A stretch of DNA of 64,000 nucleotides from a virus. The notes beneath the pieces were generated by a model. That model did not search any database, had not been told where the DNA came from, and worked only from the letters and a program-made list of their open reading frames with translations. The DNA lies in IMG/VR virus record IMGVR_UViG_3300005534_000011, positions 1 to 64,000 of that record; one strand, written 5' to 3'. Made by a program: the position numbers and the translations under genes. Positions 28,191-40,724 of this stretch are shown in pieces. Every line of letters begins with the position of its first letter. Within the stretch, counting starts at the first letter, position 1.

Positions 28191-28204
28191 GGTATATCAT
28201 TAAC

Positions 28205-28576
28205 ATGAAACCACATAACGCTCTGAAATTGATTGAATCTTTCAGGGACTATTGCTTGACCCGTGGTAAAGATCAAATTGTCCACAAAGTACCGGGTGGT
28301 TGGGCAAGTTGGAATACCTGCGCTGTTGGTCAATTCGCCGATTACAAGAAGATCAAAAAGGGCGATGCCGGGCGTGGTAATAACATGTACGAAAAATTGC
28401 TTACAGCTTATAAAGCAGTGGGTATTTCGTATGGTATCGGGGTGCTGTTGTATAAATTGGGTGATACACGAACCGCCGAAAAACATTATCCAACCTTCGA
28501 CAAGCTCGCCAAAGCTTTGACCAAGGATATCAAAACCGGTATGGGTAACATCAAAGCCAATAAGGTGAAGGCATGA
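28205..28576 (+). CDS. CAxG-motif protein 8 (NTCAVGQF type)
   Basis: Third tandem paralogue: LKLIESFRDYCLTRGKDQI, ASWNTCAVGQFADYKKIKKG, and YPTFDKLAKALTKDIKTG at the end. It has an extra basic tail (KANKVKA). ATGA join to the prepilin-like miniprotein. Confidence 0.7.
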   Translation: MKPHNALKLIESFRDYCLTRGKDQIVHKVPGGWASWNTCAVGQFADYKKIKKGDAGRGNNMYEKLLTAYKAVGISYGIGVLLYKLGDTRTAEKHYPTFDKLAKALTKDIKTGMGNIKANKVKA

Positions 28577-29187: not shown

Positions 29188-29215
29188 TTGCATCAAATCC
29201 ATAGGGTGTTATACT
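29188..29215 (+). promoter_or_regulatory. Promoter with ACACCAACC leader
   Basis: TTGCAT (29188-29193) followed by CAAAT, 16-base spacer ending TGT, TATACT (29210-29215). Leader contains TACACCAACC. Confidence 0.82.
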
Positions 29216-29242
29216 GACCCTACACCAACCGAGGGGCAGACC

Positions 29243-29452
29243 ATGAACCGTAAAGAAGCATTCCTAAAGATCAAATCCGTAGCGGCGGATGATGGGTTTA
29301 CCAAACTGGATGTTCTGCCGATGTTCAAAGGTGTAGCACCTTCGGTTGTTAATGGCTATTTGAAAGCCGCGTATGAACTTGGGTTCATTACCCTGAATGC
29401 AGGCAACCCGCTGTGCATGTACCCGACCATCAATCTGCGCAACCTGAAATAA
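29243..29452 (+). CDS. Small helix-turn-helix-like protein, 69 aa
   Basis: GAGGGGCAG precedes ATG 29243. KEAFLKIKSVAADDGFTKLDVL, VAPSVVNGYLKAAYELGFITL form a compact winged-helix-like core in which the second segment would be the recognition helix; the wing is short. Related in style to the domains at 25088 and 42402. Followed by gene 29466 in the same message. Confidence 0.55.
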   Translation: MNRKEAFLKIKSVAADDGFTKLDVLPMFKGVAPSVVNGYLKAAYELGFITLNAGNPLCMYPTINLRNLK

Positions 29453-29465
29453 TTAGGAGGTAACC

Positions 29466-29783
29466 ATGGAAATTTTGGTTCATAACAGTATCAATTTCGT
29501 TAATGGTTTGGCGATGAATATCACCAACCCAGATACATTCTCGGTCCCAAGCCTTGACGAAAAGCTGGCGGTAAAACCGGGTGGTCATATCAAGATTGGG
29601 GTTAAGGTGAACTCCCATAACATCAATTGCGAACGGTTTTGGGGTCGGGTGGTTCAAAACGATACCGATAACCATATCATCACAGTGATGATTGACAATG
29701 ATTTGATTTGTACCGACATTCATGGGCTGCGTTATGATGATTGTATTCAAGTGCCCTATGATGTCGTGTTAGATGTAATTTGA
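29466..29783 (+). CDS. Hypothetical beta-rich protein, 105 aa
   Basis: A full AGGAGGT Shine-Dalgarno stands before ATG 29466. Strands GHIKIGVKVNSHNI, FWGRVVQND, HIITVMIDNDLI and CIQVPYDVVLDVI suggest a small barrel. No family recognised. High translation is expected from the RBS. Confidence 0.65.
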   Translation: MEILVHNSINFVNGLAMNITNPDTFSVPSLDEKLAVKPGGHIKIGVKVNSHNINCERFWGRVVQNDTDNHIITVMIDNDLICTDIHGLRYDDCIQVPYDVVLDVI

Positions 29784-29795
29784 TCAAATAGGGGT

Positions 29796-29824
29796 TTGCA
29801 TTTGATGTAAACCCTTGCTATACT
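29796..29824 (+). promoter_or_regulatory. Dyad promoter
   Basis: TTGCAT (29796-29801), 17-base spacer, TATACT (29819-29824). The -35 and spacer lie inside a dyad TTTGCAT/ATGTAAA flanked by GGG and CCC. Confidence 0.85.
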
Positions 29825-29857
29825 GCTATCACACCAACCAAATCAAGGAATACCAAA

Positions 29858-30121
29858 ATGGCTATCGTCAAAGCTGTTGCAAACACCCAAGACCTGAACA
29901 AAAACTGTGTTCTAATCTCAAAGGTTGTTAATCAGGTGGACGGCAACACGGTGCTGGTTTATATCCTGTTCATCAATAACAAGCCGGTCAACCACACTGC
30001 AAGCTTTGACCGCGCACTGGGTTGGTATGACAAGAATGTGACCGACGTTGTTAACCCGGTTGAAGTGGTTGAAATCGGCCATTATGCGTGTGGTACTATC
30101 CACATCAAAGAAACCCGATAA
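29858..30121 (+). CDS. Hypothetical protein, 87 aa
   Basis: CAAGGAATACC precedes ATG 29858. Beta-rich (NCVLISKVVNQV, TVLVYILFINNKPV). Starts MAIVKAVANT, similar to MSIIKAIEIK at 30200, so the two units may share leader and start by duplication. No family recognised. Confidence 0.6.
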   Translation: MAIVKAVANTQDLNKNCVLISKVVNQVDGNTVLVYILFINNKPVNHTASFDRALGWYDKNVTDVVNPVEVVEIGHYACGTIHIKETR

Positions 30122-30138
30122 ATTTGATCAAATAGGGG

Positions 30139-30166
30139 TTGCATTTGATGTAACCCCTGCTATACT
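30139..30166 (+). promoter_or_regulatory. Dyad promoter
   Basis: TTGCAT (30139-30144), 16-base spacer ending TGC, TATACT (30161-30166). Arms AGGGGTTGCAT and ATGTAACCCCT (one G-T pair). The upstream context TTTGATCAAATA also occurs at 29790 and 34720. Confidence 0.87.
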
Positions 30167-30199
30167 AACCCCATACCAACCAAATCAAGGAATACCAAA

Positions 30200-30517
30200 A
30201 TGTCTATCATCAAAGCAATCGAAATCAAAATCGTCAAAGCTGGCACTGAACATTTGGTCCACCATCAAGCGGCGATAACCCTTGAATTCGCCCCTCAGTT
30301 TGTAGGCGATATCATCAAGTCCATTTGTGGTTGCGAGCTGGACGATGACGACCACAACGATTTGAACGACTTGCATGTTTATGGCGTAATGGCGAGCCGG
30401 TTCGGTAAAGATTGGGAATTCTATGTAACTGCCAAGGTTACCTACCCCGATGATATCAATTTGGATTCCAACGTGGATTCGGATATGTTCGCCCGCAAAT
30501 ATAAGAACACTTTGTAA
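30200..30517 (+). CDS. Hypothetical protein, 105 aa
   Basis: Leader and first codons closely copy those of 29858. Acidic in the middle (CELDDDDHNDLNDL), strand-rich afterwards (WEFYVTAKVTYPDD). No family recognised. TAATG join to a small basic peptide. Confidence 0.6.
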   Translation: MSIIKAIEIKIVKAGTEHLVHHQAAITLEFAPQFVGDIIKSICGCELDDDDHNDLNDLHVYGVMASRFGKDWEFYVTAKVTYPDDINLDSNVDSDMFARKYKNTL

Positions 30518-30573
30518 TGACCAAGCGAAAGAGGCTCTATAAGCTGTTGCGGAAGCTCTGGAAGTTTCTTTGA
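30517..30573 (+). CDS. Cationic amphipathic peptide, 18 aa
   Basis: ATG 30517 overlaps the preceding TAA. The 18-residue product is MTKRKRLYKLLRKLWKFL: basic residues on one helical face and Leu/Trp/Phe on the other. It ends nine bases before a terminator. The frame is short enough to arise by chance, but the coupling and the amphipathic pattern make it worth noting. Confidence 0.4.
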   Translation: MTKRKRLYKLLRKLWKFL

Positions 30574-30581
30574 TGGTATCC

Positions 30582-30610
30582 AACCCGGTCTAATCAGCCG
30601 GGTTTTATTT
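30582..30610 (+). terminator. Rho-independent terminator
   Basis: AACCCGG and CCGGGTT (30582-30588, 30598-30604) then TTATTTT. Confidence 0.88.
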
Positions 30611-30725
30611 TGCCTAGACATCTTGACAACCATACAAAAAATATGAGAAAATGAATTGACGACCTATATTTGTGGTTGGCATGAAAATTTCCGTGAACTA
30701 TTTGATGCAAATAGCTTTAAACCGC

Positions 30726-30753
30726 TTGTATTGCATCAAATTAGGAGTATACT
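30726..30753 (+). promoter_or_regulatory. Promoter with ACACCAACC leader
   Basis: TTGTAT (30726-30731), 16-base spacer TGCATCAAATTAGGAG, TATACT (30748-30753). Same layout as 36395. Confidence 0.8.
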
Positions 30754-30786
30754 GACCCTACACCAACCGAAACAGGGAATTCAAAC

Positions 30787-31227
30787 ATGAACGCTTTCAC
30801 CCAAGCCCACACGATGACTAAAGAAATCATTCAAGCTGGTGATAACTACGCGGCCACGTTTGCCCTGTGCCTGAAACACATCAAGGGGTCTATCATGACA
30901 GAAGCTCAGAAGCTGGCAGCACAATTCATAGCCGATGCTAAAGCCCGCATAGTCGAGTTGGAAGCGTTCAAATCGACTAACCCAAGCGGTTATGTCGTAA
31001 TCACCGGGGAAGATGTTAAAATGTCCCTGCAATTTGATGCAGGTTCGGTAAAGGTTTGCAGGATCGAATCCGCTACCCGATACAGCGAACGCCGCATAGC
31101 AGACGCTATCGCTTCTCAAGTACGGAATGGTGCCAATTACAAGGCCAAATCCATTTGGTTGATTGATCAGATTGTAAATGATATCGAATGTCAACAAGAC
31201 CTGATCCGTCAATGTGAATCGATTTAA
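30787..31227 (+). CDS. Hypothetical protein, 146 aa
   Basis: CAGGGAATTC precedes ATG 30787. The first 32 residues, with HTMTKEIIQAGDNYAATFAL, match the start of a common phage early protein of unknown role. The rest is helical with one beta hairpin (GYVVITGEDVKMSLQF). Single-gene unit. The stop codon lies in a tandem AATCGATTTA repeat (31217-31236). Confidence 0.65.
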   Translation: MNAFTQAHTMTKEIIQAGDNYAATFALCLKHIKGSIMTEAQKLAAQFIADAKARIVELEAFKSTNPSGYVVITGEDVKMSLQFDAGSVKVCRIESATRYSERRIADAIASQVRNGANYKAKSIWLIDQIVNDIECQQDLIRQCESI

Positions 31228-31254
31228 ATCGATTTAAAATAATCGAAATAGGGG

Positions 31255-31283
31255 TTGCAATTTGATGTAACCCCTAGTAAACT
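31255..31283 (+). promoter_or_regulatory. Dyad promoter
   Basis: TTGCAA (31255-31260), 17 bases, TAAACT (31278-31283). Arms AGGGGTT/AACCCCT. Almost identical to the promoter at 40028. Confidence 0.82.
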
Positions 31284-31316
31284 GCAATTACACCAATCGA
31301 AATGGAAGTTGGCAAA

Positions 31317-31556
31317 ATGATCATCATCAAAGACGAGTTCACTAGCGGCGCTCAGGTAAGCATGGAAATGGATAAGGACGCGGGCGAGCTGTTCGTTTTC
31401 CATTGCCCTGCCGGTCAAGGCTGCAAGGTCAATAAATGGCCTTTGGATAGCTATCATATGCCCATTGCGATGGCGTATTACACGGAATGCTGCACAATTG
31501 AACAGCCAGAACCAGACGACATCGATTCAACTTTTGCATGCATGTGTGACGAATAA
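31317..31556 (+). CDS. Hypothetical protein, 79 aa
   Basis: ATG 31317 is chosen by analogy with the shared leader (GGAAGTTGGCAAA); an ATG at 31302 lies inside the leader. Acidic beta-rich protein with cysteines (FHCPAGQGC, TECCTI, CMCDE) that may bind metal. No family recognised. Confidence 0.6.
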   Translation: MIIIKDEFTSGAQVSMEMDKDAGELFVFHCPAGQGCKVNKWPLDSYHMPIAMAYYTECCTIEQPEPDDIDSTFACMCDE

Positions 31557-31574
31557 CCAGCGTCAATATAGGGT

Positions 31575-31603
31575 TTGCATTTGATGTAAACCCTTGCTAG
31601 AAT
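31575..31603 (+). promoter_or_regulatory. Dyad promoter
   Basis: TTGCAT (31575-31580), 17 bases, TAGAAT (31598-31603). Arms AGGGTTTGCAT and ATGTAAACCCT, differing from the AGGGGTT version on both sides at once. Confidence 0.85.
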
Positions 31604-31636
31604 CTAATCACACCAACCAAATCAAGGATTATCGAA

Positions 31637-31846
31637 ATGGCTACCGAAACCCACCTGACCCGCGAAGTGTTCACCCTCAATAAGCAGTCTGTTGGCGTCA
31701 AAGTTGCTTATAATGGTTGGTGTGCCACCTATAACGGTGACGACTGTTCGTTGTCTGATATCCCGGCTCAGTACCACGAAACCATCCGTAAGGTGGTGAC
31801 CGTAATTTGCCTCGAAAATAACTGGGTTGATATGGGGGCGGTGTAA
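31637..31846 (+). CDS. Hypothetical protein, 69 aa
   Basis: ATG 31637. Short alpha/beta protein (VGVKVAYNGWCATYNGDDC). TAATG join to the next gene. No family recognised. Confidence 0.6.
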   Translation: MATETHLTREVFTLNKQSVGVKVAYNGWCATYNGDDCSLSDIPAQYHETIRKVVTVICLENNWVDMGAV

Positions 31847-32061
31847 TGAGAGAACAATTAATCAAATTGATACAAGCGTGGCAAACTTTGGGGTTTATTA
31901 ATAGTACCCTAATGCGACCTGTCGATTATGATAGGCTGGTGTCGTCCAGACGTGCTATAGAAGTGGCTGTTAAAGCGCTCGCCGGGGTTAGCAGTTCGGC
32001 CAGCATCATTGAAGCTATGCAGGTCGTGGGTATTACCCATGATGACCTTGACCATCAATAA
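31846..32061 (+). CDS. Hypothetical helical protein, 71 aa
   Basis: Coupled by TAATG. Helical throughout (REQLIKLIQAWQTLG, RRAIEVAVKALAG). A protein of this style accompanies early operons in many phages; role unknown. Confidence 0.6.
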   Translation: MREQLIKLIQAWQTLGFINSTLMRPVDYDRLVSSRRAIEVAVKALAGVSSSASIIEAMQVVGITHDDLDHQ

Positions 32062-32072
32062 GGGATTTGATC

Positions 32073-32306
32073 ATGGCAATCGGCGAACGCAAAAGCATCA
32101 AAGGGGCACCATCACTCAAGGTTTTTGAATCGGTGATGATTAACCCACACGGTCGGGCAATCCGGTTGGACATCTGGAAGACCGACCAGACCGATGTTAA
32201 TGATAGTATTTTCGTTTTCTGTGCCAATGATTTTATCCAGACCTACGACACCGACAAGACCCTTTTGCTTGTCGAGCTGGCCGCGTACATGGTGGATAAC
32301 CTGTAA
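32073..32306 (+). CDS. Hypothetical protein, 77 aa
   Basis: AAGGG precedes ATG 32073. Basic start, then strands AIRLDIWKTD and SIFVFCANDF and a final helix (TLLLVELAAYMVDNL). No family recognised. Third gene of its unit. Confidence 0.6.
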   Translation: MAIGERKSIKGAPSLKVFESVMINPHGRAIRLDIWKTDQTDVNDSIFVFCANDFIQTYDTDKTLLLVELAAYMVDNL

Positions 32307-32323
32307 TTTGATGCAAAAGGGGT

Positions 32324-32351
32324 TTGCATTTGATGCAACCCCTGTTATACT
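32324..32351 (+). promoter_or_regulatory. Dyad promoter, exact GCATTTGATGC core
   Basis: TTGCAT (32324-32329), 16-base spacer ending TGT, TATACT (32346-32351). Arms GGGGTTTGCAT and ATGCAACCCC. Confidence 0.87.
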
Positions 32352-32376
32352 GGTATCACACAAGGGAGATACCACC

Positions 32377-32547
32377 ATGTTAGACAACAAGTTTTCAAAG
32401 GGCGACAAAGTTCAAGCCGATGGCCCTTTCTGGCTTACCGTCACCGAAGTGCGTGCTAATGGCTGGTATAGCTGCATTTTCGGTGCCATCGGCGGTTATG
32501 CTGGTTCTTTCCGTGAAACCCAACTTTCAAAATATACTGGAGCATAA
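32377..32547 (+). CDS. Small SH3-like protein, 56 aa
   Basis: AAGGGAG precedes ATG 32377. FSKGDKVQADGPFWLTVTEV, WYSCIF and FRETQLSKY read as a five-strand barrel of KOW/SH3 type; the protein at 36993 begins in a similar way. The last seven codons lie in a 27-base sequence repeated at 32886. Confidence 0.65.
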   Translation: MLDNKFSKGDKVQADGPFWLTVTEVRANGWYSCIFGAIGGYAGSFRETQLSKYTGA

Positions 32548-32912
32548 CATGGGCCTTCTCATTAGCGTTTACCGTTCGGCTGGCTGTGACTGCACTAACA
32601 ACGGTGTGTCGTCTCGTTATGATCAACTGACCCTAGTTAATGTGGGTGGTCCTTTCGAGCCATCCAATACCGCCCCGGCTGCGTGGTTGGTCAAACATCG
32701 TACAATGCCGGGTGTTGTGTATATCGTGTGTGAAGACCCGGCAACTAGCAAACGTGCCCATATGGCTGGTGGGAACTTCGGCGGTACGAGTGATTCCCGG
32801 TTTTCATCTGAAATGGCAAAACTTACCGGCTGTGCAAACTGGCACGGTGCTGCGAAGATTCACGACCGATACGAATAACCTACCACAACTTTCAAAATAT
32901 ACTGGAGCATAA
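32521..32912 (+). repeat. 27-bp exact direct repeat in front of two consecutive genes
   Basis: Identical copies at 32521-32547 and 32886-32912; both contain TTCAAAATATACTGGAGC, with TGGAG as ribosome-binding site for the genes starting at 32549 and 32916. In the first copy the sequence also encodes the end of gene 32377; the second copy is non-coding. Confidence 0.85.
32549..32878 (+). CDS. Hypothetical protein, 109 aa
   Basis: ATG 32549 follows CTGGAGCATAAC. Alpha/beta protein with CDCTNNG near the start and a Gly/Ser-rich middle; MPGVVYIVCEDP and CANWHGAAKIHDRY recur in form in early phage proteins without role. Second gene of its unit. Confidence 0.6.
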   Translation: MGLLISVYRSAGCDCTNNGVSSRYDQLTLVNVGGPFEPSNTAPAAWLVKHRTMPGVVYIVCEDPATSKRAHMAGGNFGGTSDSRFSSEMAKLTGCANWHGAAKIHDRYE

Positions 32913-32915
32913 ACC

Positions 32916-33155
32916 ATGTGGTACGAAATCAATGTTTCACTAAAAGGTAAGCACTTTTTCGCAACCGCCAAACGTAGCATTACCGACCGGGAGCAACTGA
33001 AAAAAGCGTATACCGTGTTTGCGGAAAAGTTCCCGGCAAGTGAAGGCTATGAACTGACTGTTACCAACTATGCGGTATCGGGTTATACGGTTGACCCAAT
33101 GACAGGCGAGCCGCCACGGCAGACCATCGGCGATATGGAACTCGACAAGGATTGA
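32916..33155 (+). CDS. Hypothetical protein, 79 aa
   Basis: ATG 32916. Beta-alpha-beta layout (YEINVSLKGKHFFATA, REQLKKAYTVFAEKFP, YELTVTNYAVSGY). Role unknown. Separated by one base from the next gene. Confidence 0.6.
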   Translation: MWYEINVSLKGKHFFATAKRSITDREQLKKAYTVFAEKFPASEGYELTVTNYAVSGYTVDPMTGEPPRQTIGDMELDKD

Positions 33156-33156
33156 T

Positions 33157-33360
33157 ATGAAATGCCCAAACTGTAAACAAGAATTGATGTTAAATTCACC
33201 GGTAGAATACAACGTGGAAACCTACCGAAAACCCGCTGTAGGTGTTGCGTTATGTTGTGGGGTTGGTATCAGGCTTGAGGTTGTTACTACCTTTAAAGCT
33301 ACGGTATACACCGGTAAGGCCATCTTTGACGACTGGGGTTATGAAATCAAACCAGCGTAA
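33157..33360 (+). CDS. Zinc-ribbon hypothetical protein, 67 aa
   Basis: MKCPNCKQEL gives one CxxC and LCCGVG the second cysteine pair; the rest is beta-rich. Last gene of the four-gene unit. Confidence 0.6.
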   Translation: MKCPNCKQELMLNSPVEYNVETYRKPAVGVALCCGVGIRLEVVTTFKATVYTGKAIFDDWGYEIKPA

Positions 33361-33364
33361 TACA

Positions 33365-33396
33365 AATAAACCCGGCGAAAGTCGGGTTTATTTTTG
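33365..33396 (+). terminator. Rho-independent terminator, 10-bp perfect stem
   Basis: AATAAACCCG and CGGGTTTATT (33365-33374, 33383-33392) followed by T-rich sequence. Confidence 0.92.
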
Positions 33397-33404
33397 CCTA
33401 TTAC

Positions 33405-33432
33405 TTGCATTTGATGCAATACCTGCTATAAT
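33405..33432 (+). promoter_or_regulatory. Dyad promoter with consensus -10
   Basis: TTGCAT (33405-33410), 16-base spacer TTGATGCAATACCTGC, TATAAT (33427-33432). The core dyad TTGCATTTGATGCAA is perfect. Confidence 0.9.
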
Positions 33433-33462
33433 TTGATCATAACCCAGATAAGGAATATGATC

Positions 33463-33564
33463 ATGAAAGCACTACTCAACCGGGACCGTTCAAACGTTGA
33501 TGATATCGGTTTGATTATGGTATCTGTTCTGGCGGTTGTCAGTATCCTATGGACCATCAGCTAA
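33463..33564 (+). CDS. Single-pass membrane miniprotein, 33 aa
   Basis: AAGGAATATGATC precedes ATG 33463. A charged start (MKALLNRDRSNVDD) is followed by one hydrophobic helix, residues 15-32. A strong private promoter supports it as a real gene. Function unknown. Confidence 0.6.
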   Translation: MKALLNRDRSNVDDIGLIMVSVLAVVSILWTIS

Positions 33565-33577
33565 TTTTGTTTCAGGG

Positions 33578-33605
33578 TTGCAATCTGGTTTGGATGTGCT
33601 ATTCT
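33578..33605 (+). promoter_or_regulatory. Promoter without an obvious gene
   Basis: TTGCAA (33578-33583), 16-base spacer ending TGC, TATTCT (33600-33605). The next 120 bases hold no credible frame; a hairpin AATTGAAA/TTTCAATT at about 33693-33717 could end a short RNA. Confidence 0.55.
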
Positions 33606-33733
33606 ATAGTTACTGGGGCGGCTCAGAGGCAATCACCGAAGTACCCTTGAATTTGAGTTGGCACGATTCTTGTCATAGCAATTACAATGCCAGAATTGAA
33701 ACAAATTATTTTCAATTAATTGCATCAAATAGC

Positions 33734-33761
33734 TTGACCACGCTTCTAGATGCTGTAGACT
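33734..33761 (+). promoter_or_regulatory. Promoter with GCATCAAAT upstream
   Basis: TTGACC (33734-33739), 16-base spacer ending TG, TAGACT (33756-33761). GCATCAAATAGC abuts the -35. Confidence 0.78.
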
Positions 33762-33796
33762 GACCATATCGAAACAAAACATCAGGAGTAACAAAC

Positions 33797-34210
33797 ATGA
33801 AAGTAGTAGCCGATTATCCAGCTTATCAAATCATCGATATGGAACAGGATGTACTAGACTGGCCGGAAGATACCAAAATCAATATGGCGATTGCCTATGA
33901 ATCCCGGCAGTATGGCACCATGTACCGGATGTATTATATTTCTGGTGTGGCTGCATATGTTCGTAAGTCCAATAACGAAAGCCCGGAAGAGTATCACAGT
34001 GACCCGGAAGCCGCTGTAACTCGTGCAAAATCGATGGGTCAGGCCCTGTATTGGGTAAGTGAGTGCTCTACCAGTATCACCGCGTGGAACCGTCCTAAAG
34101 AAACCCATATTTTGGGTAAGGTCTGGCAGAAAATCCGGTTTGATGGTAAGTTGTTCGAACTGGTACACAATCGCGCCGAATTCTATAGCCTGAAAGAAAT
34201 TTCGGAATAG
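33797..34210 (+). CDS. Hypothetical protein, 137 aa
   Basis: CAGGAGTAACAAAC precedes ATG 33797. Mixed alpha/beta protein, tyrosine-rich (YESRQYGTMYRMYYISG), ending with a DGKLFELVHNRAEFYSLKEI strand-helix. No family recognised. Single-gene unit. Confidence 0.62.
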   Translation: MKVVADYPAYQIIDMEQDVLDWPEDTKINMAIAYESRQYGTMYRMYYISGVAAYVRKSNNESPEEYHSDPEAAVTRAKSMGQALYWVSECSTSITAWNRPKETHILGKVWQKIRFDGKLFELVHNRAEFYSLKEISE

Positions 34211-34223
34211 CATCAAATAGGGG

Positions 34224-34251
34224 TTGCATCAATTGCAGCCCCTGCTATACT
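34224..34251 (+). promoter_or_regulatory. Dyad promoter (variant core)
   Basis: TTGCAT (34224-34229), 16-base spacer ending TGC, TATACT (34246-34251). Arms AGGGGTTGCA and TGCAGCCCCT. Confidence 0.85.
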
Positions 34252-34284
34252 AACCCCACACCAACCAAATCAGGATTACATAAC

Positions 34285-34719
34285 ATGCAAATTTCTAAAG
34301 ACATAACCGCAAACGTTCTGGCCGGTGTAATAACCTCCGATGTTAAACGTGTAGAGGCTGCCCGTGTATTGGGTATGTTCCGGGTTGTTCTGGTCGAGGA
34401 TGAAACTTACAGTTTTGAAGACCTGTGCGGCGATATGTATAACCCGGAAGCTAACCCGGATGTTGATGTAACGGTGTTGGCTCGCCAGAAGCGTGCATAT
34501 CGTGCCAGAGTGAACCGCGACGGTGTGTATGGTTCATTGGCTCAGGTACGGAATACACCAACTGGGTTATGGGTCACGGTTGAATCAATCTGGGGTTTTG
34601 TGGGTGAAGATTTTATCGGTTCCGGTTATGAATCGGACTTTATCGAAAATGCAAGTGAGTGGTTGTTTACAAACCTCGATTTGCCGAAGCTTCAAGCGGC
34701 GTTCAAAGATTTGATGTAA
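34285..34719 (+). CDS. Hypothetical protein, 144 aa
   Basis: CAGGATTACATAAC precedes ATG 34285. The first third, helix plus SYSFEDLCGDMYNPEANPDV, resembles early phage proteins containing a DLxGDxxNP segment; the rest is alpha/beta with aromatic residues (GLWVTVESIWGFVGEDF). Role unknown. Confidence 0.62.
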   Translation: MQISKDITANVLAGVITSDVKRVEAARVLGMFRVVLVEDETYSFEDLCGDMYNPEANPDVDVTVLARQKRAYRARVNRDGVYGSLAQVRNTPTGLWVTVESIWGFVGEDFIGSGYESDFIENASEWLFTNLDLPKLQAAFKDLM

Positions 34720-34735
34720 TTTGATCAAATAGGGG

Positions 34736-34764
34736 TTGTATATGATGCAACCCCTTGCTATAAT
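34736..34764 (+). promoter_or_regulatory. Dyad promoter
   Basis: TTGTAT (34736-34741), 17 bases, TATAAT (34759-34764). Arms AGGGGTTGTAT and ATGCAACCCCT. Confidence 0.87.
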
Positions 34765-34791
34765 TACCTCACACAAACCGGAGTACATAAC

Positions 34792-35046
34792 ATGCACAAC
34801 ATCCAAGCGGTCAACGACAAACTAACCGAAGGTAAAGCCACTGACCTACTGTTTACCGGGTTTCGTCAGGCCATGCGTGATGGCATGAACTATGCCCATT
34901 TCAATAGTGGGTGTGATGCGTTCGGGTTGGATGTTGTCGAAGTCCCAAGGGTCAACCAACTTAACGGCCAAAAATATTGGTCCCTTCGGTTGTATTGCGA
35001 TTGTAAATTGGTTGCAACCGCCTACGCGGATGAACATGATTTGTAA
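34792..35046 (+). CDS. Hypothetical protein, 84 aa
   Basis: CGGAGTACATAAC precedes ATG 34792. Helical first half (KATDLLFTGFRQAMRDG), then strands with cysteines (KYWSLRLYCDCKLVATAYAD). No family recognised. Confidence 0.6.
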   Translation: MHNIQAVNDKLTEGKATDLLFTGFRQAMRDGMNYAHFNSGCDAFGLDVVEVPRVNQLNGQKYWSLRLYCDCKLVATAYADEHDL

Positions 35047-35050
35047 GGGC

Positions 35051-35078
35051 TTGACAATCCAGTTACACCTGATAGGCT
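35051..35078 (+). promoter_or_regulatory. Sigma70-type promoter without dyad
   Basis: TTGACA (35051-35056), 16 bases, TAGGCT (35073-35078). Lacks the GCAT dyad and the ACACCAACC leader. Confidence 0.7.
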
Positions 35079-35106
35079 GAATCACTTTTTACCTTGAGGC
35101 GTCACC

Positions 35107-35301
35107 ATGCAAACCACGACCGTATCTCAAACCGCCTATAACCCCTCTCAGGGCGTTGTAAGCAGCCAACCCATGCAACCGGCCTACCGTGCCGAGTACA
35201 ACCCACTGTCGGCCCGCTGGATGGTTCTGAGCGAGTTTGATGTATGTGTGCAGGCTGGTTTGAGCAAAGTTGCGGCTATTGCATTAGCCGAAAGCCTCTA
35301 A
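35107..35301 (+). CDS. Hypothetical protein, 64 aa
   Basis: TTGAGGCGTCACC precedes ATG 35107. Polar, Gln/Pro/Ser-rich first half, then a helical end (EFDVCVQAGLSKVAAIALAESL). Role unknown. Terminator ten bases downstream. Confidence 0.6.
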   Translation: MQTTTVSQTAYNPSQGVVSSQPMQPAYRAEYNPLSARWMVLSEFDVCVQAGLSKVAAIALAESL

Positions 35302-35311
35302 AGATTTGAAA

Positions 35312-35334
35312 AGAGCCCCGAAAGGGGCTTTTTG
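35312..35334 (+). terminator. Rho-independent terminator
   Basis: AGCCCC and GGGGCT around GAAA (35314-35319, 35324-35329), then T5. Confidence 0.9.
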
Positions 35335-35361
35335 TTGTCTAAAAATAATTTGATGTAATCA

Positions 35362-35389
35362 TTGACATAACAATTCTGTTCTGTATAAT
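35362..35389 (+). promoter_or_regulatory. Consensus sigma70 promoter
   Basis: TTGACA (35362-35367), 16-base spacer ending CTG, TATAAT (35384-35389). Leader with ATACCAACC. Confidence 0.88.
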
Positions 35390-35421
35390 TCAATCCATAC
35401 CAACCAATCGGATTAATCAAA

Positions 35422-35694
35422 ATGCTTACTCAAACCAGCCTGAAACATCCAGTAATGCAAGACCGCATCCTGTCCGGGTTGATCGAAGCCCAGACCAAGG
35501 CCGAAAACGCCGGTCATGGTCGCGCCTACGTGGCTAATTCGAAAGGTAACAACATCATGCGGGTGGACGTGTTCAAACCGGGCCAAGTCGATTGGCTGCC
35601 GAAGGGTGGTGTTATTGTGTACGGTGAAAGCTCCCGGACCATTACCAACATGGTGGAATCCGCGTTGGGTTCTAAGCTTTCCGACTTGATTTGA
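35422..35694 (+). CDS. Hypothetical protein, 90 aa
   Basis: ATG 35422. Helix (LSGLIEAQTKAENAG) then a basic beta segment (NIMRVDVFKPGQ, GVIVYGESSRTI) and a final helix. No family recognised. Expressed from one of the strongest-looking promoters of the window. Confidence 0.62.
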   Translation: MLTQTSLKHPVMQDRILSGLIEAQTKAENAGHGRAYVANSKGNNIMRVDVFKPGQVDWLPKGGVIVYGESSRTITNMVESALGSKLSDLI

Positions 35695-35697
35695 TCA

Positions 35698-35724
35698 TAA
35701 GCCCCTGATTCTAGGGGCTTTTTA
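35698..35724 (+). terminator. Rho-independent terminator
   Basis: AAGCCCCT and AGGGGCTT around GATTCT, then T-run; the same element recurs at 38822 and, with the loop inverted, at 40697. Confidence 0.92.
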
Positions 35725-35751
35725 TTGTCAAAAAATATTTGCATCAAATGC

Positions 35752-35779
35752 TTGCAATGGTCTGAAATGGGTGTAGACT
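35752..35779 (+). promoter_or_regulatory. Promoter with GCATCAAATGC abutting the -35
   Basis: AAAAATATTTGCATCAAATG precedes TTGCAA (35752-35757); 16 bases; TAGACT (35774-35779). Confidence 0.8.
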
Positions 35780-35811
35780 ACCTATATCGAAACCAAACAG
35801 AGGATTCAATC

Positions 35812-36042
35812 ATGGCCCGTCGCGAAATACAACTGACTTGGAAAGGCGAAGATGGTGTAGAATTCACCTCTAACACCGCTATCAATGGAACAGAAGACGA
35901 AATCATTGATTATTACATGAATAATCAATTTAACGTTGGTAAGGGTCCGAACGATTATATGGCGGTTTGTGTTGCACTGGATTTTACCGATGTTAAACCG
36001 GTTGATGTATTCGGAATTAATAACTCGTTTGGGGGTCTGTGA
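35812..36042 (+). CDS. Hypothetical protein, 76 aa
   Basis: AGAGGATTCAATC precedes ATG 35812. Acidic, beta-rich then alpha (EDEIIDYYMNNQF). TGATG join to the next gene. Confidence 0.6.
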   Translation: MARREIQLTWKGEDGVEFTSNTAINGTEDEIIDYYMNNQFNVGKGPNDYMAVCVALDFTDVKPVDVFGINNSFGGL

Positions 36043-36374
36043 TGCTCTATACATTGCTTGGTTTGTACCTGATGACCGGTGCTACTAGCCCAACTGATAC
36101 TGTCGAGAAAATCGAGGGCATGCATTTGGAACAATCGGTTTGTGTTCAACGTGCCAAAATTCTGGCGGATGAATTGGGTGGGGCTCGCTGCCGACCAGAA
36201 GAGGAACTAGACGAAAACACACCGTATCGGAATACCCTCACAAAGATTCAATTGCCATCGGGTCGGGTTATTGAGTTGTGGTACACCCGTGGGGTTTGGT
36301 CTTATCCTGCTGATTTGGTTGATGAGGATCGGGAGCTTATCGAGCAATACACCCAATTCGAATACAGCCGCTGA
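36042..36374 (+). CDS. Hypothetical protein, possibly exported, 110 aa
   Basis: ATG 36042, with GGGGG upstream. Residues 1-14 are hydrophobic (MLYTLLGLYLMTGA) and could be a short signal peptide, after which two cysteines (SVCVQRA, ARCRPEE) may pair. The weak basic start leaves export uncertain. No family recognised. Confidence 0.55.
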   Translation: MLYTLLGLYLMTGATSPTDTVEKIEGMHLEQSVCVQRAKILADELGGARCRPEEELDENTPYRNTLTKIQLPSGRVIELWYTRGVWSYPADLVDEDRELIEQYTQFEYSR

Positions 36375-36394
36375 AAATAAAATCGGAATAGGGG

Positions 36395-36422
36395 TTGTAT
36401 TGCATCAAATTGAGATTATACT
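36395..36422 (+). promoter_or_regulatory. Promoter with ACACCAACC leader
   Basis: TTGTAT (36395-36400), 16-base spacer starting TGCATCAAAT, TATACT (36417-36422). Confidence 0.83.
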
Positions 36423-36453
36423 AACCCCACACCAACCAAATCGAGTAAAGATC

Positions 36454-36699
36454 ATGAAAACCGCGACCAAGACCTACGCCATAGTTGACGTTAAAAAATG
36501 GTGGTTCTCGCACTTCACCATCAATGGCAATGGGGTTTATAGTTTCACCATCCAAACCGAAACCGGTGAAATCATCAGCGGCAAGACAGCTCCCGGCCTG
36601 AATCAACATCTGTCGATGAGTCCTGCTAAGCTGGCAGACGTGACCATCAGCACAACCCCGACCGGTCGTATCAAGATGACCAACGCCAACCGGGCCTAA
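36454..36699 (+). CDS. Hypothetical protein, 81 aa
   Basis: GAGTAAAGATC precedes ATG 36454. Basic beta-rich protein (WWFSHFTINGNGVYSFTIQ). No family recognised. Single-gene unit. Confidence 0.6.
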   Translation: MKTATKTYAIVDVKKWWFSHFTINGNGVYSFTIQTETGEIISGKTAPGLNQHLSMSPAKLADVTISTTPTGRIKMTNANRA

Positions 36700-36718
36700 A
36701 GAATTTGATGTAAGGGGG

Positions 36719-36746
36719 TTGCTAATTGATGCAACCCTGTTATAAT
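36719..36746 (+). promoter_or_regulatory. Dyad promoter (variant)
   Basis: TTGCTA (36719-36724), 16-base spacer ending TGT, TATAAT (36741-36746). Arms GGGTTGC and GCAACCC. Confidence 0.82.
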
Positions 36747-36778
36747 TCCAGCACACCAACCGAAATAGGGATTCAAAA

Positions 36779-36991
36779 ATGGCTATCGCACACGACATAA
36801 CCTGCAAGAACTCGACCAATCCTAAAGGCTTTCACGTTAGCTTTAATGGTCGCCGGGCTGGGGCGTTGGGTGTTACCTATGCCGTGCAAATCAACGTTTA
36901 CGCGGATACCGAAGAAATGGCACACACCGCCATCTATCAGGAATATGAACACCTGATGTTCGTCAAAATCACTCCTATCAATGGTGATTGA
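36779..36991 (+). CDS. Hypothetical protein, 70 aa
   Basis: TAGGGATTCAAAA precedes ATG 36779. Beta-rich with basic patch (FHVSFNGRRAGALG, TYAVQINVYADT). No family recognised. Two bases before the next start. Confidence 0.6.
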   Translation: MAIAHDITCKNSTNPKGFHVSFNGRRAGALGVTYAVQINVYADTEEMAHTAIYQEYEHLMFVKITPINGD

Positions 36992-36992
36992 T

Positions 36993-37223
36993 ATGACCAC
37001 TAATCGGGTGTTCAAGAAGGGTGACACCGTAGGTTTAAAGGCATCGGTTCGTAAAGGTTGGAAGTGTCCAGAAGGCCGAGAGGACAACCAAACCGCCGAT
37101 ATCAGAGCGACCTACAGCGATAAAGGCGAATGCTGGTTAGACCATGATTTACACGGCTGCAAGTATTGGAATCAAGAGGATTTGATTTTGATTCAAGCGG
37201 TTGAAGACAAGACGCCCCAATAG
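36993..37223 (+). CDS. Small SH3-like protein, 76 aa
   Basis: ATG 36993 directly after the previous stop. FKKGDTVGLKASVRKGW opens a barrel-like sequence comparable to that at 32377; GECWLDHDLHGCKYW has two cysteines with a histidine. Role unknown. The stop codon overlaps the loop of a terminator. Confidence 0.6.
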   Translation: MTTNRVFKKGDTVGLKASVRKGWKCPEGREDNQTADIRATYSDKGECWLDHDLHGCKYWNQEDLILIQAVEDKTPQ

Positions 37224-37232
37224 GGGCTTTTT
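37214..37232 (+). terminator. Rho-independent terminator overlapping a stop codon
   Basis: GCCCC and GGGGC (37214-37218, 37223-37227) with an AATA loop containing part of the TAG stop, then T5. Confidence 0.85.
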
Positions 37233-37260
37233 GTTGTTCAAAAATATTTGCATCAAATGC

Positions 37261-37288
37261 TTGCAATAGGTTGGAAACCGGTTATAAT
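37261..37288 (+). promoter_or_regulatory. Promoter with GCATCAAATGC abutting the -35
   Basis: AAAATATTTGCATCAAATGC precedes TTGCAA (37261-37266); 16 bases; TATAAT (37283-37288). Confidence 0.86.
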
Positions 37289-37319
37289 GAACCACACCAA
37301 CCAAATCAAGGATTCAAAA

Positions 37320-37727
37320 ATGAAAACCCAAGCCGAACTGATTCAAGAAGCTGTTACCAACGCCGCCGAAGGTTGTGCAATATTCAATGCAAAAATGGTC
37401 GAACTGTTTCCGGTGTATATTGCACTGGCACGCCCTCGTAAGTTGCTGGGTGATAACGTAGAAATCGAATTCGCCAACGTTTCCAACCGTTCCGAATGCT
37501 CTAGCGGGATTCTGATGAATGCTAGTGGTCATATGCGGTTTATGATGCAACTTAACGAAGGTGTTAATACCGTCGCAAATTCGTTTGATATTGACTTATT
37601 GACGTGGCATCATCAAGCACGTAGTGTTTTGAAGTTCCGTCGAATCAAAGGCAAGACCCCAGCCGAAGCCCTGCAAAAGTTGGCGGTCTGGTTTGAAAAG
37701 AATCAGGACATTATCAAGGCAATCTAA
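37320..37727 (+). CDS. Hypothetical protein, 135 aa
   Basis: CAAGGATTCAAAA precedes ATG 37320. Helical N-terminus (AELIQEAVTNAAEG), beta middle (DNVEIEFANVS, HMRFMMQLNEGVN) and a closing helix (TPAEALQKLAVWFEKN). No family recognised. Confidence 0.62.
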   Translation: MKTQAELIQEAVTNAAEGCAIFNAKMVELFPVYIALARPRKLLGDNVEIEFANVSNRSECSSGILMNASGHMRFMMQLNEGVNTVANSFDIDLLTWHHQARSVLKFRRIKGKTPAEALQKLAVWFEKNQDIIKAI

Positions 37728-37738
37728 TTGGGGTGGCT

Positions 37739-38086
37739 ATGGAAAAGGATTTGTTAGCACCGTGTGACAAGTGCCCCAGCATCACCGATAAGGAAGTGGG
37801 TTATATCGCTGGGGCTTCTGTAATGCTGTTTAAGACGTTCAACGGATCAAGCCGATATGTTTATCAGGTGCAAGGCCGTAACGTCGCTGTGATGCATATA
37901 GCGGCTGATATGAGCAAAGCTGCTAGGGTTGTGTCGGTGTATGCATTACCAGATTATAAAAATGCCGGGTTGTTCCGAAAGTTGTATTACAGTGCCATGA
38001 AAGATCATGGCCGGGTCAAGTTAGGTGATGAATTGTCTAACTGTACTCAAGTGCTCGACTTAATCCACGAAATCAAAAACATCTAA
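37739..38086 (+). CDS. Hypothetical protein with GNAT-like segment, 115 aa
   Basis: GGGGTGG precedes ATG 37739. CDKCPS near the start is a CxxC. VVSVYALPDYKNAGLFRKLYYSAMKDHG (split by function into strand and helix) resembles the acetyl-CoA-binding loop and helix of GNAT acetyltransferases, where a Q/RxxG loop follows a YVxPxYR strand. The rest of the fold is too short for a normal GNAT, so this is a weak assignment. Confidence 0.45.
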   Translation: MEKDLLAPCDKCPSITDKEVGYIAGASVMLFKTFNGSSRYVYQVQGRNVAVMHIAADMSKAARVVSVYALPDYKNAGLFRKLYYSAMKDHGRVKLGDELSNCTQVLDLIHEIKNI

Positions 38087-38096
38087 GGGCTTGATC

Positions 38097-38315
38097 ATGT
38101 GTCGCAAATTCATCAAAAATTCTGATATGCGGGAATTGGTCAACTTTGCCGAGGGGATCGGCTATAGTGTGGAACTAACCAAGGGTAAGCACCTAAAGTT
38201 TACCCTTCCCGGTGTGTCGCCGGTCTTCACAAGTTCAACCCCCAGTGATTACAGAAGCTGGGCTAACTGTCGAGCACGCTTGAAGCGGTTGGTGTCTGGG
38301 CTGATGGCGGCCTAA
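38097..38315 (+). CDS. HicA-like small protein, 72 aa
   Basis: ATG 38097. YSVELTKGKHLKFTLPG resembles the GxH strand of HicA mRNA interferases, and VFTSSTPSDYRSWANCRARL is the shared tail of a phage HicA-like group. No HicB antitoxin is next to it. Catalytic His is present (KGKH), but activity in this phage subgroup is untested as far as I know. Confidence 0.55.
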   Translation: MCRKFIKNSDMRELVNFAEGIGYSVELTKGKHLKFTLPGVSPVFTSSTPSDYRSWANCRARLKRLVSGLMAA

Positions 38316-38335
38316 AAATAATTTGATGCAATCCC

Positions 38336-38364
38336 TTGACGGGGTGGTTAGGTTGCATCATACT
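38336..38364 (+). promoter_or_regulatory. Sigma70-type promoter
   Basis: TTGACG (38336-38341), 17 bases, CATACT (38359-38364). TTTGATGCAATCC lies just upstream. Confidence 0.65.
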
Positions 38365-38391
38365 GACTACACAATCAAAGGAGCTACACAA

Positions 38392-38610
38392 ATGAAACTT
38401 ACACCATTGCAAGCAAGTAAGAAAATCCGCGAACATCTGAATCAAGGTAACGGCATATACATTGATGGTCGTTACTATGATGTCAGGGTACATGCTGGAA
38501 TGTTGCAGGTTTCCGACTTTCGAAGCTGGTTTGTTGTGCAACCCGGTGCCGAGTTCCGTAACAGCCACGGTCGTACACTCTTCACCTATGAACCGATAGA
38601 AGGGGCTTGA
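38392..38610 (+). CDS. Hypothetical protein, 72 aa
   Basis: AAGGAGCTACACAA precedes ATG 38392. Helix (ASKKIREHLNQG) then strands (GIYIDGRYYDVRVHAGMLQV). No family recognised. Confidence 0.6.
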   Translation: MKLTPLQASKKIREHLNQGNGIYIDGRYYDVRVHAGMLQVSDFRSWFVVQPGAEFRNSHGRTLFTYEPIEGA

Positions 38611-38611
38611 C

Positions 38612-38818
38612 ATGGCGAACCAAATCACCGCTATGCAAACTCAAGTTGATGAGCTTACAACCCGCATCAACTTAGCTGATGACAGCTTGCAATCATTCCG
38701 GGCGTATCTGTCAAGTCCGAAATTCACCGGGGACAGTGAGTTACAAGGTTACATATCAATTCAAGATGTTGAACACCATCTAGCCGCTATCTGGCGGGAG
38801 TTACACGGTTTGAATTGA
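38612..38818 (+). CDS. Small coiled-coil protein, 68 aa
   Basis: One base after the previous stop. TAMQTQVDELTTRINLADDS is a heptad helix; the second half is helical as well. Terminator follows immediately. No family recognised. Confidence 0.6.
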   Translation: MANQITAMQTQVDELTTRINLADDSLQSFRAYLSSPKFTGDSELQGYISIQDVEHHLAAIWRELHGLN

Positions 38819-38821
38819 TCC

Positions 38822-38847
38822 AAGCCCCTGATTCTAGGGGCTTTTTA
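38822..38847 (+). terminator. Rho-independent terminator
   Basis: AAGCCCCT and AGGGGCTT around GATTCT with T5, identical to 35699. Confidence 0.92.
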
Positions 38848-38874
38848 TTGTCCAAAAATATTTGTATCAAATGC

Positions 38875-38902
38875 TTGCATTACATCAAATAGCTGTTAGA
38901 AT
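38875..38902 (+). promoter_or_regulatory. Promoter with upstream GTATCAAATGC
   Basis: AAAAATATTTGTATCAAATG precedes TTGCAT (38875-38880); 16 bases; TAGAAT (38897-38902). One base differs from the GCATCAAATGC element. Confidence 0.8.
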
Positions 38903-38934
38903 GAACTCACACCAACCGAAACAGGAATTCGAAA

Positions 38935-39147
38935 ATGGTCATGAAACTGGAACAAATAACCGAAGCTCTGAAAAACAAACATTTGGAAACTGTCAAGAAG
39001 GAACTATGTCGGTATGGTGATATCTTGGATGTGCAGGACTGGGAAGACCACCACGGGGCACATCGTTGTTATACCATTCAATACCAAAATGCAAGTTTCG
39101 ATATATCTATGTTGAACGGTGCAACCATCAATATCAAACAGGGTTGA
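38935..39147 (+). CDS. Hypothetical protein, 70 aa
   Basis: CAGGAATTCGAAA precedes ATG 38935 (ATG 38941 also possible). Helical start (EQITEALKNKHLETVKKEL) and beta end (CYTIQYQNASFDISML). No family recognised. Confidence 0.58.
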   Translation: MVMKLEQITEALKNKHLETVKKELCRYGDILDVQDWEDHHGAHRCYTIQYQNASFDISMLNGATINIKQG

Positions 39148-39151
39148 ACAT

Positions 39152-39328
39152 ATGAAATTTCAAGACACCTTTACAGACCGGCTGACCGGACAAAAGTTTA
39201 CGGTTGAAATTGAAATCAACCAAGGCGAAGTGTCGAAATTGTTAGCCGCTAGGGCATGGGGCAGCAAGTCCGGGAAAAGTCAAGCCCTGAATGGTGATAT
39301 CAAATGCAAAATTATTAAACGTGAATAG
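39152..39328 (+). CDS. Small basic protein, 58 aa
   Basis: ATG 39152, four bases after the previous stop. Beta start (KFTVEIEINQGE), Lys/Ser-rich end (SKSGKSQ, KCKIIKRE). No family recognised. Confidence 0.58.
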   Translation: MKFQDTFTDRLTGQKFTVEIEINQGEVSKLLAARAWGSKSGKSQALNGDIKCKIIKRE

Positions 39329-39341
39329 CATCAAATAGGGG

Positions 39342-39369
39342 TTGCATTTGATGCAACCCCTGCTATACT
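39342..39369 (+). promoter_or_regulatory. Dyad promoter, perfect 11-bp arms
   Basis: TTGCAT (39342-39347), 16-base spacer ending TGC, TATACT (39364-39369). Arms AGGGGTTGCAT and ATGCAACCCCT with TTG between them: the clearest example of the class. Confidence 0.92.
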
Positions 39370-39400
39370 AACCCCATACCAACCAAATCGAGTAAACATC

Positions 39401-39646
39401 ATGGCACGTCAAACCCGCTACACCGTACAGGCACTACGCGCAGATATCAAAGAATTGAACGAGACTTTGAAGGCAACCGGGTACTATCTGGGGGTTGAAT
39501 GCCGCAACGGTTACACCGGGTTGGACGAATACCGGGTTAGTACAGACCCGGCTAAGCGTGATACTTGCGTTCGCAATATCGAATGTGGGTCGCCCCGCGA
39601 TTGTTGGGAAGCGGCTCGCCTGTATACCCCACGCGATAACAGCTAA
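39401..39646 (+). CDS. Basic hypothetical protein, 81 aa
   Basis: CGAGTAAACATC precedes ATG 39401. Arg-rich helical start (RQTRYTVQALRADIKELN), then GYYLGVECRNGY and a C-terminal CGSPRDCWEAARLY. This layout, ending in a conserved-looking CxxxxDCW, is known from early phage proteins without role. Confidence 0.6.
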   Translation: MARQTRYTVQALRADIKELNETLKATGYYLGVECRNGYTGLDEYRVSTDPAKRDTCVRNIECGSPRDCWEAARLYTPRDNS

Positions 39647-39664
39647 AATAGTTTGATAAAGGGT

Positions 39665-39693
39665 TTACATTTGATGTAAACCCTTGCTAGAAT
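39665..39693 (+). promoter_or_regulatory. Dyad promoter, perfect 11-bp arms with changed sequence
   Basis: TTACAT (39665-39670), 17 bases, TAGAAT (39688-39693). Arms AGGGTTTACAT and ATGTAAACCCT: both sides changed relative to 39342 while pairing is kept. Confidence 0.85.
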
Positions 39694-39726
39694 CTAATCA
39701 CACCAACCGCTTTAGGAGCTTTCAAA

Positions 39727-40017
39727 ATGAAAAATCTGATTCTTGGTATCGCACTGGTAACCGCATCCTTCGCCGCTGTTGCGGATGGTCAACAAAAATG
39801 CGCAGAATTGGTTCACACCAGAACTCTGGCCCCAATCTCCGAATTCTCCGACGCAACCGCCGCCACTCCTTATTACACCGTGGCTCGCCAAAAAGGCGGT
39901 TCGACCACTACCTATCAATGTGATGGGATGGGTAACTATCGGCAGTTGATGGATTACGGGTGGTCCATCTGGCGCACCGGTAACGAATGGAACGCTGTTC
40001 ACTGGATGCAGGGTTGA
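39727..40017 (+). CDS. Secreted periplasmic protein, 96 aa
   Basis: TAGGAGCTTTCAAA precedes ATG 39727. MKNLILGIALVTASFAAVAD is a clear Sec signal peptide with cleavage after AVA (about residue 19). The mature 77 residues contain two cysteines (KCAELV, YQCDGM) likely paired in the periplasm, then an aromatic C-terminus. No family recognised; an envelope role such as exclusion of other phages is possible. Confidence 0.72.
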   Translation: MKNLILGIALVTASFAAVADGQQKCAELVHTRTLAPISEFSDATAATPYYTVARQKGGSTTTYQCDGMGNYRQLMDYGWSIWRTGNEWNAVHWMQG

Positions 40018-40027
40018 TAAAAAGGGG

Positions 40028-40056
40028 TTGCAATTTGATGTAACCCCTAGTAAACT
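40028..40056 (+). promoter_or_regulatory. Dyad promoter
   Basis: TTGCAA (40028-40033), 17 bases, TAAACT (40051-40056). Near copy of 31255 including the downstream GCAATCACACCAACC. Confidence 0.82.
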
Positions 40057-40366: not shown

Positions 40367-40684
40367 ATGTCCGAATTGATCAAAGAACTATCCGCCGCTC
40401 TGGACTTCGCCACCGAAGTTTTGAATACGGCACCCCCGCAAATCTGTCAGGTCAAACTGACCGCCGAACCGGGTAAGGTTTGGATTCGTCTGGTGTATAC
40501 CGAATTGAACCGGGACGGAACTGTAAGCGACCGTAGCCGCTGCTGGGGGTTCATGGATGCAGACGGCAACCTCTGGAAGTCGGCAGGCTGGAAGGCCCCA
40601 GCCAAAAACAAACCACGCGGAACACTGGCGGATTTGCACGACCCCAAGAAGGTCGAAAGCTGGCGGTATGGTGGTGTGCAATAA
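40367..40684 (+). CDS. Hypothetical protein, 105 aa
   Basis: AAGGAGTTACAACC precedes ATG 40367. Helical start, beta middle (GKVWIRLVYTELNRDG), tryptophan-rich WKSAGWKAPAKNKPRG loop. No family recognised. Terminator 12 bases after the stop. Confidence 0.62.
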   Translation: MSELIKELSAALDFATEVLNTAPPQICQVKLTAEPGKVWIRLVYTELNRDGTVSDRSRCWGFMDADGNLWKSAGWKAPAKNKPRGTLADLHDPKKVESWRYGGVQ

Positions 40685-40696
40685 CCGAAATTGATG

Positions 40697-40724
40697 AAAA
40701 GCCCCTAGAATCAGGGGCTTTTTG
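40697..40724 (+). terminator. Rho-independent terminator
   Basis: AAAAGCCCCT and AGGGGCTTTT around AGAATC, then T-run. Confidence 0.92.

Follow-up and report, generated by a model that had tools for sequence, protein, structure and literature searches.

Hairpins enclosing the -35 box of early phage promoters are best explained as composite terminator/promoters

The window analyzed here is a stretch of 64,000 nucleotides, positions 1 to 64,000 of the IMG/VR virus record IMGVR_UViG_3300005534_000011, a 75.9-kb record of a T4-type myovirus. A family of early promoters in this window carries an inverted repeat (dyad) laid over the -35 box and the spacer. An earlier note on this DNA had proposed that a phage-encoded protein reads the dyad. 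Our analysis indicates that an RNA hairpin accounts for the symmetry better than a regulator docking site does. We consider, with a probability of roughly three in four, that the dyad is a composite terminator/promoter of the promoter-early stem-loop (PeSL) kind, in a variant that has the -35 box in its stem. PeSLs have reportedly been described from RB49, phi1 and similar phages of the T4 type (Arbiol et al. 2010; Comeau et al. 2014). A transcript from the upstream gene would run through the dyad DNA and fold into a hairpin which, lying directly behind the stop codon, would make the 3' end of the message. We infer both the transcription of the hairpin from the upstream gene and its role in terminating transcription or protecting the RNA end. 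The same base pairs would provide the -35 box and spacer for the sigma70 early promoter that drives the following gene, and an element of about 45 bp would end one unit and start the next.

The elements are surrounded by very small genes on a single strand, a region of early type; "early" is used here on the strength of this small-gene region, not of timing. All 16 positions at which promoters had been proposed are promoter-like, and each has the -35 and -10 boxes and 16-17 bp spacer expected of a strong sigma70-like promoter, with an ATG downstream. The dyad over the -35 box and spacer was recovered at 11 of the 12 sites listed for it, with stems of 7-12 bp; the site at 33405 has the TTGCAT/ATGCAA pairing alone. 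The sites share a family resemblance, but just three of them (32326, 33407 and 39344) have the exact GCATTTGATGC, and most other dyad sites carry GCATTTGATGT or variants of it. The "core" in the title of the earlier note was therefore overstated. The paired arm change between 39342 and 39665 is correct (a compensatory G-C to A-T change), and the reverse 11-mer GCATCAAATGC adjoins the -35 box as described at 24460, 35752, 37261 and 40752. Ten perfect dyads of at least 9 bp were observed in the window, compared with 1.1 in shuffled sequence, and the folding energy is -13 kcal/mol or better at all 11 dyad sites. The dyad is not equally frequent in coding DNA: TTGCATTTGATGYAA, allowing up to one mismatch, occurs eight times in the 75.9-kb record, seven of them at these promoters. 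A near-match, TTGCATTTGATGGAA, at 57455-57469 lies inside an exonuclease gene with no promoter and is kept in two related phages (G001 and G002, introduced below); it is probably plain coding sequence. The promoter features, with upstream open reading frames (ORFs) and terminators where relevant, are as follows.

29790-29816, plus strand: embedded hairpin AGGGGTTTGCA/TGTAAACCCTT over the -35 box (29796) and spacer, -10 box TATACT, about 7 nt past the stop of ORF 29466-29783
30134-30158, plus strand: embedded hairpin AGGGGTTGCAT/ATGTAACCCCT, -35 box at 30139
31250-31275, plus strand: embedded hairpin AGGGGTTGCA/TGTAACCCCT, -35 box at 31255
31570-31594, plus strand: embedded hairpin AGGGTTTGCAT/ATGTAAACCCT, -35 box at 31575
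32318-32343, plus strand: embedded hairpin AGGGGTTTGCAT/ATGCAACCCCT with a single bulged T, -35 box at 32324
33364-33419, plus strand: canonical terminator (33364-33393), then a promoter whose dyad is limited to the 6-bp core TTGCAT/ATGCAA (33405-33419)
34219-34243, plus strand: embedded hairpin AGGGGTTGCA/TGCAGCCCCT with a U.G pair, -35 box at 34224
34731-34755, plus strand: embedded hairpin AGGGGTTGTAT/ATGCAACCCCT with a U.G pair, -35 box at 34736
36716-36737, plus strand: embedded hairpin GGGTTGC/GCAACCC, -35 box at 36719
39337-39361, plus strand: embedded hairpin AGGGGTTGCAT/ATGCAACCCCT, -35 box at 39342
39659-39685, plus strand: embedded hairpin AAGGGTTTACAT/ATGTAAACCCTT, -35 box at 39665, compensatory G-C to A-T
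40023-40048, plus strand: embedded hairpin AGGGGTTGCA/TGTAACCCCT, -35 box at 40028
42350-42363, plus strand: spacer hairpin AACCCA/TGGGTT in the promoter of gene 42402
43812-43831, plus strand: spacer hairpin ACCCC..GGGGT in the promoter at 43809
40697-40722, plus strand: canonical intrinsic terminator preceding the non-hairpin promoter at 40752
24449-24459, unstranded: GCATCAAATGC adjoining the -35 box at 24460, without a long hairpin; likewise at 35741, 37250 and 40741

What relatives of this phage keep is the pairing and not the core sequence. The nearest are G001 (183 kb) and G002 (168 kb), both uncultivated, with RIIA identities of 82-83%; a third, G004, is more distant. No near DNA match was found among named phages, the closest of which are the Pseudomonas phages Milchi and Astolliot (RIIA identity 45.5%). 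A promoter scan that did not require symmetry returned about 150 early-type promoters from five related genomes, and the stem AGGGGTTGYAT..ATRCAACCCCT or a close variant is present at 70 promoters. The 46 distinct arm pairs contain 441 Watson-Crick, 41 G.U, 3 A.C and 6 other pairs. When whole right arms were shuffled, none of 2000 shuffles reached the true Watson-Crick count. This result and the compensatory changes bear out the claim that the promoters form a family with symmetry under selection. Symmetry is also retained in Milchi and Astolliot, whose hairpins have the loops TTTCGG, TTACGG, TTCTGG and TTTTGA; UUCG/UACG-like loops are found in both phages. The GCATCAAA/TTTGATGC 8-mer is present in only 1 of their 27 hairpin promoters, and the dyad sequence thus lacks the conservation among related phages expected of an operator. 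In G004, the stem is for the most part a different one, present at four promoters (ATCAAACCGC..GCGGTTTGAT, ATCAAACCCC..GGGGTTTGAT and a G.U variant) with compensatory changes of its own. A third stem type, in the promoter spacer of gene 42402, reads AACCCA/TGGGTT here and AACCCT/AGGGTT in G001 and G002, a double compensatory change. At 62 of 79 untied sites the better fold is that of the sense strand and not of the antisense strand (62 versus 17; Wilcoxon p = 2e-9). This bias, we stress, is partly due to the G/T-rich left arm set by the -35 box and must be read with caution. A pattern scan of viral contigs matched only this phage group, G004 and a further genome, G006.

Several variants of these hairpins were seen in passing. 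In the early regions of G001 (L027/L028) and G002 (L029/L030), the TTGTATTTGATGCAA hairpin also appears inverted as TTGCATCAAATACAA within the same GGGG/CCCC stem (G001 25034; G002 13426 and 25160), as if the middle of the palindrome had been flipped. The sequence-unrelated stem of G004 (L055, 25001-45000), ATCAAACC(G/C)C..G(C/T/G)GGTTTGAT, extends into the -10 box at its four promoters, and G002 has one similar copy. Several early promoters of IMGVR_UViG_3300046491_000064 (L050) have TTTTCTAA rather than ATCAAA in the spacer, and one has a GGGG..CCCC hairpin.

The position of the hairpins ties them to the upstream gene. By our own ORF calls, 62 of 68 hairpins start 5-14 nt past the upstream stop codon (median 10), and in Milchi's own annotation all 16 start 6-15 nt past it. 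The stems of ordinary terminators before other early promoters stand mostly 2-18 nt past the stop. Canonical terminators precede, by 120 nt or less, 2 of the 70 hairpin promoters versus 32 of the 75 others (Fisher p = 2.7e-9), and this exclusion is robust to distance (p = 1.6e-9 at 60 nt). The two structures also replace one another. Behind the gene at 39401-39646 stands a hairpin in the window and in G001 but a terminator in Milchi and Astolliot; behind the gene at 40367-40684, the window and G002 have a terminator and Milchi has a hairpin. This is our best evidence for a role of the hairpin at the end of the upstream message. To our knowledge, this is the first comparative evidence of such a hairpin taking the exact place of an ordinary terminator.

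A hairpin in this position could instead mainly shape or protect the RNA, as a 3'-end stabilizer or a nuclease processing site, and not terminate transcription. The absence of a U-tract, the stable GC base of the stem and the location right behind the stop codon would all suit such a role, which we regard as possible, if doubtful. It is opposed by the way in which the elements exclude, and change places with, genuine intrinsic terminators, and stems of 7-12 bp are short for RNase III, whose typical sites have longer stems.

A composite terminator/promoter also has to be weighed against several contrary points. The 8 nt after the stem contain a mean of 3.6 T, versus 6.3 for ordinary terminators, and the stems are not directly followed by the U-tract of a canonical intrinsic terminator; intrinsic termination may therefore be weak or factor-dependent. 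Tight spacing behind stop codons suits simple genome compaction as well. A short word, ATCAAA, is fixed in these promoters (described below) and shows that there is some DNA-level constraint too. The G.U excess is partly expected, since the left arm is held G/T-rich by the -35 box. Because right-arm transitions opposite such an arm give G.T anyway, the excess was set aside as a stand-alone proof of RNA function and is suggestive only. Finally, the promoters, genes and terminators compared are computational predictions.

The alternative favored by the earlier note is that the dyad is a DNA operator, at which a phage-encoded dimeric protein bound over the -35 box would co-repress or co-activate the early units. 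Within the early region, the TTTGATGC/GCATCAAA words reach 3-12 times their density elsewhere, and the hexamer ATCAAA/TTTGAT is sharply positioned relative to the -35 box in either promoter class and across three clades. A winged-helix family with a paralogue pair in the early region is present in the word-bearing phages and was not found in G006, whose promoters have TTTTCTAA. Yet Milchi and Astolliot keep the hairpin almost always without the 8-mer, the loops vary freely, and the word that is conserved is a hexamer that is present also where there is no long dyad. An operator has no need to follow a stop codon or to exclude terminators; the model is disfavored because it predicts neither the post-stop position nor the replacement of terminators. 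A protein reading the GCATTTGATGC dyad was rejected as the main explanation of the symmetry because relatives lose the core sequence and not the pairing, and we judge the operator model unlikely.

The part of the regulon idea that survives concerns the shorter word and not the dyad as such. ATCAAA/TTTGAT occurs at fixed offsets from the -35 box, with peaks at -16 to -9 upstream and +4 to +10 in the spacer, and these offsets hold in promoters with and without a hairpin. They account for the GCATCAAATGC 11-mer adjoining the -35 box. The three clades are that of the window, Milchi/Astolliot (mainly in the non-hairpin class) and G004. A short motif at fixed promoter positions is what an operator would leave; the word may be a protein site or may reflect the shared ancestry of cassettes. 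Two genes are of interest as possible readers.

42402-42917, plus strand: candidate DNA-binding protein with a long, low-complexity Ala/Pro/Lys-rich N-terminal tail and a predicted winged-helix C-terminal domain
25088-25552, plus strand: paralogue of 42402, with which it shares 27% identity in the C-terminal domain

The predicted structure of 42402 has a mean predicted local distance difference test (pLDDT) score of 56, rising to about 70-75 in the domain, with elements in the order H-E-H-H-E-E. The best PDB match is an ArsR repressor (E = 6.5e-4). The 42402/25088 family was found only in this phage group, and no match to it was seen in G006, a record that is a fragment. Of the four readers proposed previously (25088, 29243, 42402 and 19801), none matched a regulator family in Pfam or PHROGs; one of them, 42402, has the predicted winged helix. 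We offer the 42402/25088 pair as a possible reader of the ATCAAA word, as a lead and not a result. Two codes might even be superposed, with an RNA hairpin ending the upstream message and ATCAAA/TTTGAT (at about -50 and -28) being read by 42402/25088 to switch all early units. We think this combination rather unlikely, but if true it would mean that the virulent T4-type relatives of Milchi and Astolliot have a global early regulon not described before.

Similarity among the elements might also come from duplication and homologous exchange, the repeats being mainly recombination cassettes and not regulatory. Near-identical copies do precede unrelated genes (31255/40028 and 31575/39665), gene order is heavily rearranged between distant relatives, and PeSLs are reportedly named for a role as recombination cassettes in modular gene shuffling. 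However, adjacency breaks are no commoner at the cassettes than at promoterless gaps (p = 0.53; p = 0.23 near, 0.12 far), a lack of excess that comes from a weak test on a small sample of distant genomes, and the compensatory changes require selection on pairing. This explanation is quite improbable in our view. Still more remote, to the point of being barely credible, is that the dyad acts in an extruded form, its DNA making a cruciform promoter of the sort used by the virion RNA polymerase of phage N4. The palindrome with a 3-nt loop at a promoter invites the comparison, but these are ordinary -35/-10 promoters with 16-17 bp spacing, their hairpin-less neighbors share the same layout, and the N4 promoter hairpins belong to a different polymerase.

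The assignment to the T4-type phages rests on family matches to RIIA (59003-61147), RIIB (61147-62019), a DsbA-like transcriptional regulator (62084-62395) and T4-type tail fiber genes, together with a Milchi-like gene order. Astolliot and Milchi have been argued to form a separate new genus in a 2025 paper (PMC11780129). The GenBank label Otagovirus on Astolliot (OM982621.1) is misleading, its nucleotide identity to that genus being <0.2% (PMC11780129). An Rfam scan of the window gave no match, and a tRNA search of the window found none. A tandem trio of related ORFs (27523-28576, 42-50% identity) has one counterpart in G001. The best that PHROGs gave for the gene at 43135-43788 was a weak match (E = 0.0025) to a T7-like protein kinase, an inhibitor of host transcription; the promoter downstream of it, at 43809, has a spacer hairpin.

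If composite terminator/promoters are the correct reading, they extend from RB49-like phages to a lineage near Milchi and Astolliot, and the geometry, with the -35 box within the stem, is new. Since sequence-unrelated designs are found in one phage group, the fusion of a unit end with a unit start appears to have been selected repeatedly. The elements would be compact natural parts of <50 bp that insulate one gene from the next, and a candidate early regulator has been flagged alongside them.

Comparison with known systems places the elements closest to PeSLs. The scattered operators of other phages, such as the P1 c1 operators and L5 stoperators, are protein sites independent of RNA pairing. 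Like them, the elements here are many similar sites across small transcription units; unlike them, their pairing outlives their sequence, and no repressor or lysogeny genes were seen. T4 middle promoters have a MotA box centered at -30 (PMC2988021). They share with the promoters described here a phage-specific word near -30 in a promoter of the host polymerase, but a -35 box is present here and the word is ATCAAA/TTTGAT, not TGCTT. No match to MotA or AsiA was found among about 20 window proteins scanned, no whole-genome search for them having been made. Intrinsic (Rho-independent) terminators also have a GC-rich hairpin directly past the stop, and the elements are exchanged with them after orthologous genes; the window stems differ in lacking a U-tract and in having a promoter occupy the downstream half. 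The stem-loops of PeSLs are reportedly effective terminators. RB49 contains at least 11 promoter-embedded hairpins that are unrelated in sequence and of two other designs, four of them within the spacer (such as TTGACAGGGGATCGGTGATCCCCTATACT) and seven at the -10 box, which they surround (such as GGGAGTATGCTATAATACTCCC), the latter with changes from GGGAGTA/TACTCCC to GGGGGTA/TACCCCC. As in the window, they lie right behind the upstream stop codon (6-22 nt past it for the ten with a listed stop). The window stems differ in enclosing the -35 box, in their unrelated sequence and in the separate ATCAAA word that accompanies them, and no enrichment of breakpoints was seen when the cassettes were tested for it. 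What they have in common with PeSLs is a T4-type phage in which stem-loops lie in or beside promoters, each fused to an early sigma70 promoter and densely placed among small variable genes.

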